Positions 11,731 to 27,128 of a DNA stretch of 32,532 nucleotides are shown here, piece by piece (the first letter of the stretch is position 1; every line of letters begins with the position of its first letter). The stretch is from Chloroflexota bacterium (GTDB lineage Bacteria > Chloroflexota > Limnocylindria > Limnocylindrales > CSP1-4), in NCBI GenBank assembly GCA_003156975.1, contig PMIE01000060.1, positions 1 to 32,532 of the forward strand, written 5' to 3'. The notes beneath the pieces were generated by a model, which did no database searches, had not been told where the DNA came from, and saw only the letters and a program-made list of their open reading frames with translations. Made by a program: the position numbers and the translations under genes.

Positions 11731-12660
11731 TCAGGCCGACTTGCGGCGGCGGGCTGGGACGGCCTCGACTTGGTCGTCGTCGGCCTGCAGAGCGGGAATC
11801 TTCCCGGGCCCAACTGCGACGGACCTGCGAGCTCGGGTCCCGCCGGCGGCCTTCACAGGCTCCGGCGCGGCAGTCGCACGGTTGACCCTGGCTGCCGCAA
11901 CACTTGCCTCCAGGGCGGCCATCAGGTCGCCGACGGTGGCGCTTGGAGTCGCCATGGGCTCGGCGATCTGCTCGCCGGCCGCCTTGGCCTCGATGATCGC
12001 GGCCAGAGCTTCCCGATACTCGTCGTGCTGGGCGGATGGATCGAACTCGCCGGTCATTGCGGCGACCAGCTGCTCCGCCATTGCCCGCTCTGCCGGCTTG
12101 ATCTGGATTTCGTCTTCCGGCAGGGTGAGCTCCCCAGTCGAGCGGACCTCGTCCGGCCAGTACAGCGTCGAGAGAAGCATCGTCGCGGCGAACGGATCCA
12201 GCACCGCGAGCTGCTCGCGATCCCTCAGCACGATCTTGCCTACCGCCCGCAGGCCGCGCTCGGCCAGGACTTGCTTGAGAAGGAAGAACGCCTTGCGGGC
12301 AATGGGGTCCGGCTCCAGGTAGTAGGCCTGCTTCACGAAGCGGGTCGCCTCGCCGTCGGAGTCGGCGGCGATGAATTGCTCGATCTGGATCGAGCGAACC
12401 GTCTTGAGCGGGACGGCGGCCAGATCCGCGTCCGTGACGACGACGTAACGGCCGGGCGCGACTTCATAGCCCCGGACAGTGTCGCTACGCTCGATGTAGA
12501 CATCGTCCGTCGGGCAGTACGTCTTCATCTGGATTCGGCCGTGGCAGTCGGCGTGGAGCATGTTGAAACTCACGCCCTTCGATTCCGTCGCCAGATAGAG
12601 CTTGACCGGGATCGTGACCAGGCCGAACTCGATCGCCCCTTTCCACATCGATCGCGCCAT
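11731..12660 (-). CDS. ku: Ku protein, non-homologous end joining
   Basis: MARSMWKGAIEFGLVTIPVKLYLATESKGVSFNMLH, TVRGYEVAPGRYVVVTDADL, LEPDPIARKAFFLLKQVLAERGLRAVGKIVLRDREQLAVL; basic C-terminus RRRKSA. Start placed at ATG 12660, with GAGGTG upstream. Confidence 0.95.
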   Translation of the reverse strand: MARSMWKGAIEFGLVTIPVKLYLATESKGVSFNMLHADCHGRIQMKTYCPTDDVYIERSDTVRGYEVAPGRYVVVTDADLAAVPLKTVRSIQIEQFIAADSDGEATRFVKQAYYLEPDPIARKAFFLLKQVLAERGLRAVGKIVLRDREQLAVLDPFAATMLLSTLYWPDEVRSTGELTLPEDEIQIKPAERAMAEQLVAAMTGEFDPSAQHDEYREALAAIIEAKAAGEQIAEPMATPSATVGDLMAALEASVAAARVNRATAAPEPVKAAGGTRARRSVAVGPGKIPALQADDDQVEAVPARRRKSA

Positions 12661-12791
12661 CGGAACACACCTCGCATCGCCGGCCCGTCTCGGGTGAGGC
12701 CGCGAGCAATGACCATAGCGCGATCGCGCCGAGTGTCCACGCTGGCGGGCGATCGTCCCGCCCTCCGGGCGGGCCCAAGAGGCTCCGCGCA

Positions 12792-14057
12792 CTACTTCGT
12801 GCGCAGCTCCGTCTCCGCTTCGACGATGCGCGCCAGGATGCCGTCGCGCAGCCTGTCCAGGCCGGCGTAAACCTCTTTGGCGCTCGTGCCGATAGCGGTC
12901 AGCGACATCTTCAGCGCGCGGAGCGTTTCCAGCTGTTCGCGGACGCCGTTGAGGGCCTCGCCGATGGCGGCGGCGTCGACCTCGACGTCGTGGTCCTTGA
13001 GGGTCTGGAGAGCGAGCAGACGGGCCAGCCGGACCGCCGCTTCCAGCGTCGCCGGTTCCGGAGCCGCCGGGTCCTGCACGCAGTAGACATCACCGGCCCG
13101 GATGTCGAACGGGGCGATGCCGGCCGGGGCGTGGGCGGCGGTGAACACGACCAGCGCCACGGCCGCATCGCGGTTGGATTTGGCTTCACGCAGCTCGTCT
13201 CGCATGGCGCGGCCGGAGACGTAGCGGTCCTTGCACTCCACGACGACTCTCAGCTCGTTGCCGGCGGTCACGTCCGCGTTGAGCGTTAGAACGAAGTCGC
13301 CCTTCTTGGAACTCATCATTGCGCCGGATTCCGTGCCGGTCCGCTCGAGGAGGTCTCCCGAGCCGCGGGCCAGCTCACCCAGCATTGCTTCGATGTTGTC
13401 TTCGAAGTCCGCGCCCTTGGCCGAGCCCTTCGCTCGCTCCGAAGCCCGGGCCGCCCCGGCCGCCTCCAGCGCCGCGAGCTTCTCGCCGATGACCTTGAAG
13501 CCCTCGGCCATCTCCGTCCGGAACTGATGGAGCGGCGATCCGAGGCGCGTGGGATCCAGCAACTGGGCGAGCCGGGACGCATCCCCATCGAAGTAGCTGC
13601 CAAGCAGGACCTTCATTCGGCCGATGGCGCTGTCCCGCTTGCCTTCGTCGAAAAGCTCGTCCACGAAGGTTCGCAGTTGACCCTTGTCGCCGAGGAATTT
13701 CTCCAGCGTGCGCGGCAGCCGGCCCTCGCCGTCGGCGAAGTTCTGGCGGAGCATCATGTCCAGCGCCGTCGCCGCGCGCTCGTTGGCGGCCTCCGTCTGC
13801 CGCAGCAGCCCCTGGAACTCGGACCGGACCGCATCCACGTTCACAGTCACGCCGACGCTCTGGATTGCGGTGAGACCGACGCGCAGGGCTCGCTCCAGCA
13901 GGACCGCGCGCTCTTCGTCCGAACGATCTGCCACGAAGGCGGCCAGCGCGGGATCGTCCAGGACGAGATGCTCGATGACGAGCCGATCCGCCTCTACGCG
14001 GATACTCAACAGGCGATTCGACGTGGAGGGAAGTGGAACGAGCCGGGCGGTTTCCAT
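12792..14057 (-). CDS. Predicted PD-(D/E)XK-fold nuclease with helical N-terminal region, function unknown
   Basis: 421 aa; nuclease-like motif series KGADFEDNIEAML ... SSKKGDFVLTL ... LRVVVECKDRY ... ELREAKSNRDAAVALVVFT (E ... GD ... ExK). Confidence 0.7.
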   Translation of the reverse strand: METARLVPLPSTSNRLLSIRVEADRLVIEHLVLDDPALAAFVADRSDEERAVLLERALRVGLTAIQSVGVTVNVDAVRSEFQGLLRQTEAANERAATALDMMLRQNFADGEGRLPRTLEKFLGDKGQLRTFVDELFDEGKRDSAIGRMKVLLGSYFDGDASRLAQLLDPTRLGSPLHQFRTEMAEGFKVIGEKLAALEAAGAARASERAKGSAKGADFEDNIEAMLGELARGSGDLLERTGTESGAMMSSKKGDFVLTLNADVTAGNELRVVVECKDRYVSGRAMRDELREAKSNRDAAVALVVFTAAHAPAGIAPFDIRAGDVYCVQDPAAPEPATLEAAVRLARLLALQTLKDHDVEVDAAAIGEALNGVREQLETLRALKMSLTAIGTSAKEVYAGLDRLRDGILARIVEAETELRTK

Positions 14058-14079
14058 ACCGAGATCATGACATCCGCCG

Positions 14080-14098
14080 GTGACAGCTAGCGTGTCAC
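14080..14098. promoter_or_regulatory. 19-bp inverted repeat GTGACA-GCTAGCG-TGTCAC, candidate operator in the divergent nuclease/merR intergenic region
   Basis: Perfect 6-bp arms, 7-bp spacer that itself contains the GCTAGC palindrome. Confidence 0.4.
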
Positions 14099-14189: not shown

Positions 14190-14675
14190 ATGACAGAGAA
14201 GAATCAAGCTGCGGCTTCCGAAACGGAAACCCAGCCCGCGCGACTGCTGCGCATCCAGGAAGCGGCCGCCGAAGTCGGGCTCACGCCCCGATCGGTGCGC
14301 TACTACGAGGAAATGGGGTTGCTCCGGCCGGCCGCGCGGTCGGAGGGGGACTACCGCTTGTACGACTCGACGGACCTGGAGCGGTTGCGCTTCATCAAGG
14401 GGCTGCGCGACGATGCCGGCTTCTCGCTGGCGGAGATCGCCCAGCTGCTCGAGGACGAGGAAGCTCGCGAGCGGGGCCACGCCGCTTTCCATGCCAGCAC
14501 CGATCCGGTTGAGCGCAAGCGGATCCTGTGCGAGCGAGTCGCCAGCTTCGAGCGCCAGATCGAGACGCTCCAGCGCAAGATCGATCGACTGCAGGCCATC
14601 GTCGATGAGACCGAAGGCCGGCGGGCCAGAAGCCTCGCCAAGATCGAAGCCATCGGGACGGACCAGCCATGTTGA
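14190..14675 (+). CDS. MerR family transcriptional regulator
   Basis: RIQEAAAEVGLTPRSVRYYEEMGLLRPAARSEGDYRLYDSTDLERLRFIKGLRDDAGFSLAEIAQLL plus C-terminal coiled coil; ATG at 14190 (the ORF track uses an upstream TTG). Confidence 0.94.
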   Translation: MTEKNQAAASETETQPARLLRIQEAAAEVGLTPRSVRYYEEMGLLRPAARSEGDYRLYDSTDLERLRFIKGLRDDAGFSLAEIAQLLEDEEARERGHAAFHASTDPVERKRILCERVASFERQIETLQRKIDRLQAIVDETEGRRARSLAKIEAIGTDQPC

Positions 14676-22415: not shown

Positions 22416-25400
22416 GTGGCTTCCTCGACTGACCCGCGTCCTGTGCGCGGCGACCCAATGGAACCCTTCAGCCCCGCGGTAGGGGAGTGGTTCCGTTCTG
22501 CCTTCGCCGCGCCCACGCCGGCCCAGGTCGGCGGCTGGGCCAGCATCTCGGCCGGGCGGCATACCCTGATCCACGCCCCAACCGGGAGTGGCAAGACCCT
22601 GGCCGCGTTTCTGTGGTGCCTGGACCGGCTGGCGCGGGAACCCCGGCCCAGGACACCCACGGTCCGCGTCCTGTACATCTCGCCGCTCAAGGCGCTCATC
22701 TACGACGTGGAGCGGAACCTGCGTGCCCCGCTGGCCGGGATCCGCCTGGCGGCCCAACGGCTCGGCGAGCCGATGCCGCAGATCGAAGTCGGCGTCAGGA
22801 CCGGCGACACGCCCGCCCAGGAACGCCGCCACCTCGTCCGCAACCCGCCGGACATCTTGATCACCACGCCCGAATCGCTCTACCTGATCCTGACCAGCCA
22901 GGCGGCCGAAAGCTTGCGCGGCGTTGAGCATGTGATCGTCGACGAGGTCCACGCTCTGGCGGGGACCAAGCGAGGCGCCCATCTGGCGCTGAGCCTCGAG
23001 CGGTTGGAGAAGCTCACAGCTCGCCCGCCACAACGGATCGGGCTCTCGGCGACGCAGCGACCGGTGGCGACGATCGCCCGGTTCCTCGGCGGCATCGGGC
23101 CCGGCAGGGCGGGGGAGTCGCGCGAGGTCGGCATCGTCGATGCCGGATCGCGCAAGGTGCTCGAGCTGTCGGTTCGCGTCCCGGTCGAAGACATGAGCAA
23201 GCTCGGCGAGCTGCTTCCGCCGGAGGATCAGCCCACGGGGCCGGCGGCCGGTCCGGAGGCGCGCCACAGCATCTGGCCGGCGATCCATCCGCAGATCCTC
23301 CAACTCATTCGCGAGCACCATTCCACGATCATCTTCTGCAACTCGCGGCGCCTGGCCGAGCGTCTGGCGAACAAGCTCAACGAGCTTGCCGGCGAGGAGC
23401 TCGTTCGGGCCCATCACGGCTCGCTGGCCCGCGAGCAAAGGGTTCAGATAGAGGAAGCGCTCAAGGCCGGGCGCCTGCCGGCGATCGTCGCCACGAGCTC
23501 GCTCGAGCTTGGCATCGACATGGGCGCGGTGGATCTGGTGATCCAGGTCGAGTCGCCGGCGACCGTCGCGAGCGGGTTGCAGCGGGTCGGTCGGGCGGGG
23601 CACCAGGTGGGCGAGCCGTCCAAGGGGATCTTCTTCCCCAAGTACCGGGGCGATCTTCTGGAGACGGCGGTCGTGACGGCGCGGATGCACGAGGGCGCGA
23701 TCGAAGAAACGAAGCTGCCGCGCAACCCTCTTGATGTGCTTGCCCAGCAGATCGTCGCCATGACGGTTCGCGAGCCGTGGGAAGTGGACGAGCTCTTCGA
23801 TGCGGTCCGACGGGCGGCGCCGTACGAGAGCCTGACCCGCGACGCCTTCGAGGCGGTGCTTGGGATGCTCGCCGGCGCATATCCCTCCGATGAGTTTGCG
23901 GACCTCAAGGCTCGAGTGGTCTGGGACCGCGAGACCGGGCGGATCGAGGGCCGCCGAGACGCTCGGACCGTCGCGATCACGAGCGGTGGAACCATCCCGG
24001 ACCGAGGGCTGTATCCGGTCTTCCTGGTCGGCGAGGCCGGGACTGCGGGCCGTCGGGTCGGCGAGCTGGACGAGGAGATGGTCTACGAGAGCCGCGTCGG
24101 CGAGGTGATCGCGCTCGGCGCGACGAGCTGGCGGGTGGAGGAGATCCGGCCGGATCGCGTGGTCGTCTCGCCTGCGCCGGGCGTTCCGGGCAAGATCCCG
24201 TTCTGGCACGGCGACGGATTGGGCCGGCCGATCGAACTCGGCCGGGCGCTGGGTGAGTTCGTGCGCGAGCTCGAGGGCGACCTGGCAGGCGGCCAGCGCG
24301 GGCATGACCGGGCCCGACGCCGGCTGCTGGAGCATCACGACCTGGACGACCTGGCGGCCGACAACGTCCTGGCATACCTGACCGAAGAGCGTGAGGCGGT
24401 CGGGTCGCTGCCGACCGATCGTCGCATCGTCGTGGAGAAGTTCCGCGATGAGCTTGGTGACTGGCGGATCGTCGTGCTGACGCCGTTCGGCGGGCGGGTC
24501 CATTCGCCTTGGGCCCTGGCGATCGAATCGCGTCTGGAGGAGCGCCTCGGCACCGGGACGCAAACGATCTGGTCGGATGACGGCATAGCCATTCGGATGC
24601 CCGAGGGAGAGGCGGCCGGCGGGCGGGATGGGCTCGCCGACCTGCTCTTTCCATCGGCCGATGAGGTCGAGGACCTGGTCGTGGGTAGGCTTGGAAGTTC
24701 GGCCATGTTCGCGGCTCGTTTCCGCGAGAACGCCGCCAGGGCGCTTCTGCTCCCTCGCCGACGGCCCGGGTCGCGGACGCCCCTGTGGCAGCAGCGGCAG
24801 CGGTCCGCCGGATTGCTCGCGGTCGCCAGCAGGTACGGCTCCTTTCCGATCATCATCGAGACCTACCGTGAATGCCTCGCGGACCTCTTCGATTTGCCGG
24901 CACTGCGCGAGGTCCTCGGGGCAGTGGCTCGGCGCGAGATCGAGGTTCGCGAAGTGGAGACGGTTGCGGCCTCGCCCTTCGCCGGCTCGCTGCTCTTCGA
25001 CTACCTGGCCGCATACATGTACGAAGGCGATGCCCCGCTGGCGGAGCGGCGCGCGGGCGCGCTCGCGCTCGATCGCGAGCTACTCCGCGAGTTGCTCGGC
25101 CAGGAGGAGTTGCGCGACCTCATCGATCCCGCCGCGCTCGCGGACCTGGAGCTGGCGCTGCAAGCGCTCGTTCCGGAGAGGGCGGCGCGCACCGTCGATG
25201 CACTGCACGATTTGCTGCGGCGCCTCGGCGACCTGACGACGGAGGAAGTGGCGGCGCGGGTCGCGGAGCCGGCCGCCGCCGGGGAGTGGCTCGTGGCCCT
25301 GCGGGGATCGCGGCGTGCGATCGCGTTGCGGATCGCCGGGGAGGAGCGCTGGATCGCCATCGAGGACGCGGCCAGATATCGCGATGCGCTGGGAGTGCCG

Positions 25401-27128
25401 TTGCCGGTGGGCGTGCCGACGGCGTTCCTCGGGCCGGCCGAGGCGGCGCTGGACGGGCTCGTTGCCAGATGGGCCCGGAGCCACGGTCCGTTCCACGCGA
25501 TGGAGGCGGCGAGCCGATGGGCGGTGCCGGTGGCGCGGGTAGAGGCGGCGCTCGAGGGGCTCCTCGAGGCGGGCTCCATTCTGCGCGGCGAGTTCCGGCC
25601 CGGCGGCACGCAGCGCGAGTGGTGCGACCCGGAAGTGTTGCGGCAGCTTCGGCGGCGCTCCCTCGCTCGGCTTCGCAAAGAGGTCGAGCCGGTCGAGCAG
25701 ATCGTGCTGGCTCGTTTCCTTCCGGCCTGGCAGGGCGTTCGGCCTGTCGGCCAGGCTGTTCCCGCGCTACCGCGCGGCGAGGCTGCGCTGGAGCGGCTCG
25801 CGGAGGTCGTCGATCAGCTGGCCGGCGTCGCGATCCCGGCGTCGGTGCTTGAACGCGACGTCCTCCCGGCGCGAGTGCCCGGCTACCAGCCGCGCCTGCT
25901 GGATGAGCTCGGTGCGCTCGGTGAGGTCGCCTGGATCGGACGTGGCAGTCTGGGCCGGGACGACGGTCGCGTGGTGCTGTACCGGCCGGGCCGCGAGGGG
26001 TTCCGCGATCTCGCGGTGGGGTCGGACGCCGGCGGAAAGGCCCTCGGAACGGCCGGCGCCGCGGCGGGCAGGGCGGACGCCCCCGCGGGAGACCTCCATG
26101 AGCGGCTGCGGGAGCGGCTTCGAGACCGCGGCGCTTCCTTCTACCGCGACCTGGCATCGGCAGCCGGCTTTGCGCCGGAACGCGAGGTCCTCGACGCGCT
26201 GTGGGATCTCGTGTGGGCCGGGGAGGTCACCAACGACACCTTCGCCCCGCTCCGGGCGTTGAGATGGAGGAGACCCTCGGGCGAGCGGCGGCCACGGCCC
26301 GGCAGATTGCGAACCGGCCCGCCCGAGGCGGTGGGCCGGTGGTCACTCGTAGCCGGTGGCGCGTCGACGGCGAGTGGCGCGTCGACGGCGAGTGGCCAAG
26401 CAACTGCACGTCTCCATTCCGTGGCGACCGTGCTGCTCGACCGCTACGGCGTTCTGACCCGTGAGGCGGTGGCATCGGAGGAGGTCCTCGGCGGCTTCAG
26501 TGCCGTCTATCCGATCCTGCGGGCGATGGAGGAATCGGGCCGCATCCGGCGTGGCTACTTCGTCGATGGACTCGGCGCGGCCCAGTTCGCGCTCCCCGGC
26601 GCCGTGGATCGGCTGCGCTCGATGCGCGAGCCCACCGTCGCAGGTTCGACCGCCACCACGGCCGCGGCCGGCCTGGCGACCGCCTCCGGCCCGGCAATCT
26701 ATCTCCTCGCGGCCGCAGATTCGGCCAACCCGTATGGCGCAGCACTGGCCTGGCCGCGCCGGGGCGAGGCCGACCGCCGGCCTCTTCAGCGGGCGGCCGG
26801 CGCCTACGTGGTTCTGGTTGACGGAGCCGCTGCCATCTACCTGGAGCGGGGCGGCCACTCACTGCAGACGCTGCCCTCGTCGGACGACCCGGCCACGGCG
26901 CACGCGGCTCTGGGCGCACTGGCGACTCTGGTGGACGACGGCAGGTTCCGTGAGCTGGTGATCGCTCGCGTGGACGGGCAGGCGGTCTCGGGCTCGCCGT
27001 GGCGGCCGCTCCTGGAGGAGGCGGGTTTCGCGGCCGGGTATCGAGGCCACGTTCTCCGGTCGGGGTTGCGGCGGGCTGCGGCCGCGGCGCGCAGCTCGGT
27101 CATCGAGATGGACAGGACCAAACGATGA
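22416..27128 (+). CDS. lhr: Full-length Lhr-type DEAD/DEAH helicase
   Basis: 1570 aa; HAPTGSGKTLAAFLWCLDRL, YISPLKALIYDVERNL, ILITTPESLYLILTS, VIVDEVHAL, GLSATQRP, IIFCNSRRLAERL, HHGSLAREQR, ATSSLELGIDMGAVDLVIQVESPATVASGLQRVGRAGHQVG; long C-terminal extension with HTH_42-like region. Confidence 0.95.
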   Translation: MASSTDPRPVRGDPMEPFSPAVGEWFRSAFAAPTPAQVGGWASISAGRHTLIHAPTGSGKTLAAFLWCLDRLAREPRPRTPTVRVLYISPLKALIYDVERNLRAPLAGIRLAAQRLGEPMPQIEVGVRTGDTPAQERRHLVRNPPDILITTPESLYLILTSQAAESLRGVEHVIVDEVHALAGTKRGAHLALSLERLEKLTARPPQRIGLSATQRPVATIARFLGGIGPGRAGESREVGIVDAGSRKVLELSVRVPVEDMSKLGELLPPEDQPTGPAAGPEARHSIWPAIHPQILQLIREHHSTIIFCNSRRLAERLANKLNELAGEELVRAHHGSLAREQRVQIEEALKAGRLPAIVATSSLELGIDMGAVDLVIQVESPATVASGLQRVGRAGHQVGEPSKGIFFPKYRGDLLETAVVTARMHEGAIEETKLPRNPLDVLAQQIVAMTVREPWEVDELFDAVRRAAPYESLTRDAFEAVLGMLAGAYPSDEFADLKARVVWDRETGRIEGRRDARTVAITSGGTIPDRGLYPVFLVGEAGTAGRRVGELDEEMVYESRVGEVIALGATSWRVEEIRPDRVVVSPAPGVPGKIPFWHGDGLGRPIELGRALGEFVRELEGDLAGGQRGHDRARRRLLEHHDLDDLAADNVLAYLTEEREAVGSLPTDRRIVVEKFRDELGDWRIVVLTPFGGRVHSPWALAIESRLEERLGTGTQTIWSDDGIAIRMPEGEAAGGRDGLADLLFPSADEVEDLVVGRLGSSAMFAARFRENAARALLLPRRRPGSRTPLWQQRQRSAGLLAVASRYGSFPIIIETYRECLADLFDLPALREVLGAVARREIEVREVETVAASPFAGSLLFDYLAAYMYEGDAPLAERRAGALALDRELLRELLGQEELRDLIDPAALADLELALQALVPERAARTVDALHDLLRRLGDLTTEEVAARVAEPAAAGEWLVALRGSRRAIALRIAGEERWIAIEDAARYRDALGVPLPVGVPTAFLGPAEAALDGLVARWARSHGPFHAMEAASRWAVPVARVEAALEGLLEAGSILRGEFRPGGTQREWCDPEVLRQLRRRSLARLRKEVEPVEQIVLARFLPAWQGVRPVGQAVPALPRGEAALERLAEVVDQLAGVAIPASVLERDVLPARVPGYQPRLLDELGALGEVAWIGRGSLGRDDGRVVLYRPGREGFRDLAVGSDAGGKALGTAGAAAGRADAPAGDLHERLRERLRDRGASFYRDLASAAGFAPEREVLDALWDLVWAGEVTNDTFAPLRALRWRRPSGERRPRPGRLRTGPPEAVGRWSLVAGGASTASGASTASGQATARLHSVATVLLDRYGVLTREAVASEEVLGGFSAVYPILRAMEESGRIRRGYFVDGLGAAQFALPGAVDRLRSMREPTVAGSTATTAAAGLATASGPAIYLLAAADSANPYGAALAWPRRGEADRRPLQRAAGAYVVLVDGAAAIYLERGGHSLQTLPSSDDPATAHAALGALATLVDDGRFRELVIARVDGQAVSGSPWRPLLEEAGFAAGYRGHVLRSGLRRAAAAARSSVIEMDRTKR
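26356..26391 (+). repeat. Perfect in-frame 18-bp tandem duplication (2 copies) in Lhr linker
   Basis: GTGGCGCGTCGACGGCGA x2, encoding the repeated GASTAS segment. Confidence 0.85.

Follow-up and report, generated by a model that had tools for sequence, protein, structure and literature searches.

The 421-aa protein encoded upstream of ku in the 32,532-nt stretch of soil Chloroflexota DNA analysed here (the window) is, as its fold and invariant residues strongly support, a nuclease of the PD-(D/E)XK type, and the reading that fits best, with roughly an even chance of being right, is that of a DNA-end-processing repair nuclease that was recruited into the neighbourhood of the non-homologous end joining (NHEJ) genes and for which Ku is optional. 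As described, bacterial NHEJ consists of two proteins, and separate nucleases for end processing are poorly defined. The conserved array nuclease–ku–ligD offers a concrete candidate for such an enzyme, and the natural ku-linked and ku-free versions of the gene make the question testable by comparison. No account of the nuclease or of the array was found in the literature searched, the coverage of which was incomplete.

On the minus strand the order of transcription is the 421-aa ORF (14057-12792), a gap of 131 bp, ku (12660-11731) and then a GNAT acetyltransferase-like ORF at 11635-10964(-), assigned by eye. The principal features are:

12792-14057, minus strand: nuclease gene (421 aa), with a helical N-terminal half, a nuclease domain at residues ~213-330 and a helical C-terminal tail
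13068-13421, minus strand: predicted PD-(D/E)XK catalytic domain (residues ~213-330; AlphaFold2 model, invariant residues, Foldseek)
11731-12660, minus strand: ku gene (309 aa, Ku beta-barrel; Pfam PF02735 E 5.6e-37, NCBIfam TIGR02772 E 7.4e-77)

The start of ku is the ATG at 12660, hence the gap of 131 bp. A preliminary description of this DNA had placed the 421-aa ORF upstream of ku and co-oriented with it and had read the motifs FEDNIEAML, KKGDFVLTL and VVVECKD from it; all of these were recovered at their positions, the identity of ku is borne out by both profile matches, and the helical N-terminal half agrees with the structure model. In profile searches the 421-aa protein matched no Pfam, NCBIfam or PADLOC family. 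The ORF is not a chance reading frame, since 102 of the 177 class genomes have an ortholog (131 have ku) and purifying selection acts on the gene, with a median within-genus pN/pS of 0.19 vs. 0.33 for ku.

The model of the full-length protein (pLDDT 69.8, pTM 0.43) is usable for the catalytic domain only. An AlphaFold2 model of residues 200-345, built with 49 related sequences, reached pLDDT 86.0 and pTM 0.80, and its elements (H17-34, E37-40, E56-59, E71-77, H83-97 and E101-106 in model numbering) follow the order alpha-beta-beta-beta-alpha-beta of the PD-(D/E)XK core fold. In protein numbering, the helix 216-233 bears E219 (codon at 13401-13403), D254 (13296-13298) stands just ahead of the strand 255-258, the strand 270-276 bears E274 and K276 (13230-13238), and the helix 282-296 is that of the motif N295-R296-x-A298; the catalytic D and the E-x-K thus lie in adjacent strands, with a supporting E in the first helix. 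The four residues E219, D254, E274 and K276 do not vary in any of three alignments (14, 24 and 49 sequences) and, together with N295-R296-x-A298, are invariant from Chloroflexota to haloarchaea, whose homologs share 24-29% identity. Foldseek against the PDB placed MspJI at the top, followed by EcoT38I, BamHI, McrBC and PaqCI, with EndoMS further down; the best E-value was only 3.6e-3, at probabilities of 0.97-0.99 for the leading matches. Mrr-type restriction enzymes were among the top matches in a viral structure library, and a PDB sequence search with the family profile gave matches at chance level only. The nuclease prediction of the preliminary description is thus backed by the fold, the invariant catalytic residues and an Mrr-like profile match, and the protein is very probably a catalytically active nuclease with the fold of restriction enzymes.

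The nearest named family is Mrr_cat (PF04471), with which the protein shares a PD-(D/E)XK core comprising the F-E helix, the D and the E-x-K, and by model and profile it resembles an Mrr-type nuclease. Alignment of the nuclease family with a set of Mrr_cat domains by hhalign gave a probability of 91.7 (E 8e-7), and a distant homolog on a Methanomethylovorans plasmid (L155:6007-7329) scores 27.6 bits for Mrr_cat vs. a cut-off of 21. The window protein itself is not classed as Mrr_cat, since its own score in the Pfam profile search stays below the curated cut-off; unlike Mrr_cat proteins, it carries no recognised DNA-binding domain and has a helical N-terminal half instead. The preliminary description had also named DUF2130 (PF09903) beside Mrr-like folds as a possible relative, and here the likeness is weak: it is seen in six of 24 orthologs (best E 0.0018), the hhalign probability is 72 over the E-x-K half, the window protein itself gives no match, and one genome of family f4 contains a separate DUF2130 protein. 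As judged by sequence, this is a nuclease family without a name, common to the Chloroflexota class, haloarchaea and methanogens.

Of the 107 genomes in f1, the window's family, 80 encode the nuclease, and where both genes lie on one contig ku is located downstream, on the same strand and less than 10 kb away, in 51 of 53 genomes; 27 of the linked pairs lie within 500 bp, and the pairs span 14 genera. Both genes occur in 70 genomes of f1, the nuclease only in 10, ku only in 13 and neither in 14 (Fisher p 7e-5, uncorrected for phylogeny). A frequent arrangement, found in many genera and in several different upstream contexts, is the array nuclease–ku–LigD, and the LigD proteins tested in these arrays possess phosphoesterase, ligase and polymerase domains. 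The gap between nuclease and ku varies from ~100 to 1470 bp, and one to six unrelated genes, some of them on the opposite strand, often split the pair while its order is still kept. The association with ku, without which the preliminary description would have withdrawn its proposal, is therefore present in f1, with order and orientation kept in 14 genera.

Outside f1 no conserved neighbourhood with ku or ligD was found. In family f2 (genomes of ~1.1 Mb), which may correspond to the published reduced-genome freshwater Limnocylindraceae (PMC13212565), 16 of 19 genomes encode the nuclease and none of the 19 has ku or LigD_N. Nuclease and ku are both present and unlinked in f4, f3 has ku and not the nuclease, and 43 kb separate ku from a full-length homolog in another part of the phylum. 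The gene hence does not occur only with ku, given f2 and the ten nuclease-only genomes of f1. The f2 loci L054-L062 show a tight operon of a conserved 91-aa protein without Pfam match (e.g., L058:5140-5415(+)), the nuclease and an MFS-type transporter gene that overlaps the nuclease by 4 bp.

Upstream of the nuclease gene a palindromic element was recognised, which is new relative to the preliminary description, and promoter-like sequences were found ahead of both genes:

14080-14098, minus strand: operator-like palindrome GTGACACGCTAGCTGTCAC, 22 bp upstream of the nuclease ATG
14064-14069, minus strand: predicted -10 box CATGAT (xAnnnT), 6 bp ahead of the nuclease ATG
12712-12739, minus strand: ku promoter-like TGGACA-N16-TATGGT, in the nuclease–ku gap

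The element has the consensus GTG[A/C]CA-[C/G]nCTAG[C/G]-TG[T/G/A]CAC with a 7-base spacer, derived from aligned upstream regions. Of the 49 class loci scored outside f2, 43 have it, its end lying 22-23 bp ahead of the nuclease start, and it occurs both with and without an adjacent ku. Ten bases past it stands the xAnnnT box, the A and T of which are invariant in 43 of 43, and the ATG follows 6-7 bases on. From this geometry transcription is predicted to start at about the ATG, so that the nuclease mRNA would be leaderless and made from a dedicated promoter both where ku is linked and where it is not, while a dimeric regulator may sit over the -35 region. A scan of 1.31 Mb (~60%) of one genome (G107) gave a single full element, that of the nuclease gene, and neither full nor half elements precede any other gene there; of the 42 full matches at other class loci, 41 belong to nuclease genes, and the remaining one precedes a small ORF that is closely followed by a TM0106-family RecB-like nuclease-helicase gene. 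An element so specific to the nuclease predicts a dedicated regulator, or autoregulation. The f2 nuclease genes do not have it, and in most f2 operons a TATACT-type box immediately precedes the first ATG. As for ku, the -10 region of the gap sequence has been kept within the genus, reading CTATGCTCG in most sister genomes, and for this reason a promoter of its own is probable. The preliminary description had considered operon membership unproven because of the 131-bp gap, and an operon with ku is indeed argued against by the separate promoter-like sequences, the variable gap and the opposite-strand inserts.

Several other interpretations of the palindrome were set aside. The neighbouring MerR gene (14190-14675) is not favoured as its regulator, since the element persists where MerR is not adjacent; an RNA hairpin is disfavoured by a fold z-score of 0.24 and by the many sites with an arm mismatch; and a broad SOS- or PafBC-like regulon was not seen in the 1.31 Mb of G107, in which neither lexA nor recA was found. 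The mycobacterial RecA-NDp/PafBC promoter, tTGTCRgtg-8nt-TAnnnT (PMC5656591), has the same spacing as that from the right arm TG[T/G/A]CAC to the xAnnnT box, and a similar position near -26. However, the RecA-NDp motif is not palindromic (PMC6789036) and serves many genes, whereas the element described here is palindromic and was found at one gene only in the 1.31 Mb of G107, and for these reasons the likeness is taken as a lead only.

Genera g32, g17 and g33 have second copies of the operator-like palindrome within a few kb of the nuclease gene (L134:12835, L136:13263, L135:1608 and L133:10825), near adenosine-deaminase-like and C-terminal-processing-protease-like genes, named by eye. In four genomes of three genera a TM0106-family RecB-like nuclease-helicase gene lies directly upstream of the nuclease; an operator-like copy precedes the helicase itself at L049:2894 and a small ORF before the helicase at L045:2121, in different genera. 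The helicase genes are:

L045:2379-5870, TM0106-family nuclease-helicase
L049:2980-6501, TM0106-family nuclease-helicase
L139:7168-10323, TM0106-family nuclease-helicase
L148:1-1518, TM0106-family nuclease-helicase

In the preferred reading, an Mrr/MspJI-like PD-(D/E)XK nuclease, single-copy and widespread in the class and served by its own tightly positioned promoter-operator, would act as a general repair enzyme on DNA ends that are damaged or aberrant; within f1 it would have become genetically coupled to ku and ligD, apparently once, and would probably provide end-cleaning or resection before or alongside joining by Ku and LigD. We infer a DNA substrate, an action at breaks and a coupling to Ku that is functional rather than merely positional. 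The co-occurrence within f1, the clustering of the linked state on the nuclease tree and the TM0106-family helicase, as a DNA-processing partner upstream, lend this reading further support. Against it stand the retention of the nuclease in f2 without ku and LigD and in ten f1 genomes without ku, its unlinked state in f4 and in the homolog from elsewhere in the phylum, a linkage that partly rides on larger syntenic blocks, and the archaeal homologs located by restriction- or defence-type genes. Known NHEJ modules, composed of Ku and LigD (or of LigC and a separate polymerase), resemble the locus in the ku neighbour and in the full LigD of many genera; they differ in having no separate PD-(D/E)XK nuclease. 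End trimming in bacterial NHEJ has been ascribed to LigD's own nuclease/phosphoesterase domain (PMC5124664), and a published neighbourhood analysis covered ku–ligD proximity only (PMC7719229). A bolder wording, which we regard as doubtful though worth keeping in sight, makes the protein a third NHEJ component, i.e., an Mrr-like nuclease with a dedicated palindromic leaderless promoter that would trim or resect break ends for Ku and LigD, or for alternative joining or recombination where Ku has been lost.

It is unlikely that the protein is instead a restriction- or defence-type nuclease (Mrr/MspJI-like, possibly modification-dependent) that became fixed on the chromosome, its ku linkage either allowing the repair of self-inflicted breaks or being incidental. 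Its fold neighbours are restriction enzymes, and distant archaeal plasmid homologs (eight at 22-28% identity, seven of them nearly full length) adjoin a type III restriction-modification pair (L155), a PbeA-like helicase (L156), an MkoA-like helicase (L152) and AAA/VWA/MBL genes, with no ku beside them in the stretches read. However, PADLOC assigned the window protein to none of its families, no phage homolog was found, and the distribution is not patchy as that of defence genes: the nuclease is mostly single copy, has low pN/pS and is kept in genomes of 1.1 Mb.

About equally unlikely is the view that the genes are neighbours merely through inherited synteny, with no functional tie and with an unrelated job for the nuclease. 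The region is itself partly syntenic across several genera (shared upstream clusters 3, 4, 7, 13 and 25), so that common descent accounts for part of the linkage, and the inserted genes break any operon. On the nuclease tree the linked state changes seven times, a number as low in none of 500 shuffles, i.e., it is clustered; this may reflect a single gain of linkage in f1 followed by several losses, the deep branches being weak. Yet the upstream flanks vary by genus while the order nuclease–ku(–LigD) survives, and all three partners are DNA-end enzymes.

The strong form of the preliminary description, a dedicated end-processing factor working only with Ku, is improbable: the order and orientation conserved over 14 genera and the co-occurrence within f1 speak for it, but the nuclease is retained in f2 and in ku-less f1 genomes, 13 f1 genomes and family f3 have ku and not the nuclease, and the two genes have separate conserved promoter-like sequences. 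Since the nuclease persists in f2 without ku and LigD and is unlinked in outgroup families, a dedicated Ku-dependent trimming factor is unsupported; of the proposal that it trims Ku-bound ends, the ku association in f1 stands, while Ku-specific trimming is weakened by the ~16 f2 genomes, the unlinked deep lineages, the distinct promoter, the inserted genes and the defence-type neighbours in archaea.

LigD is missing from the window, as previously described, and neither LigD nor a LigD-type polymerase was found in the 2.78-Mb, 85%-complete assembly of the window genome (LigD_N 0, LigD_Prim-Pol 0). The Ku of this genome is probably not alone, because sister genomes carry either a full LigD (six of 21) or a split pair of LigC-like ligase and LigD-type polymerase, identified by sequence likeness. 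In the split loci of the window's genus, a LigD-type polymerase (~445 aa) faces a LigC-like ligase (~360 aa), away from ku:

L157:4020-6597, split NHEJ locus
L158:5452-7930, split NHEJ locus
L159:3414-5820, split NHEJ locus
L166:3357-6227, split NHEJ locus

Short DNA-ligase-like proteins without the adenylated lysine of motif I (EPKWDGFR changed to EPWWPGTR or EPRWGGRR) were also noticed, three of the five being encoded directly downstream of ku; possibly they are catalytically dead, ligase-fold partners of Ku:

L070:5181-5792, minus strand: lysine-less ligase-like protein
L077:5263-5967, minus strand: lysine-less ligase-like protein
L045:11288-11899, minus strand: lysine-less ligase-like protein
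L046:11367-11999, plus strand: lysine-less ligase-like protein
L163:5186-5920, plus strand: lysine-less ligase-like protein, window genome, contig C19

At L049:9136-11199(+) the phosphoesterase and ligase domains of LigD are fused in one ORF to an ABC-transporter permease domain; this is probably a truncated LigD or a chimera of the assembly. In genome G006 the gene L078:10775-11317(+), which closely follows ku, encodes a homolog of NpmA-type 16S rRNA A1408 methyltransferases (Pfam E 4e-43). In the window itself, ~8 kb from the nuclease, a 1556-aa ORF at 22458-27128(+) is Lhr-type helicase-like, as judged by eye.
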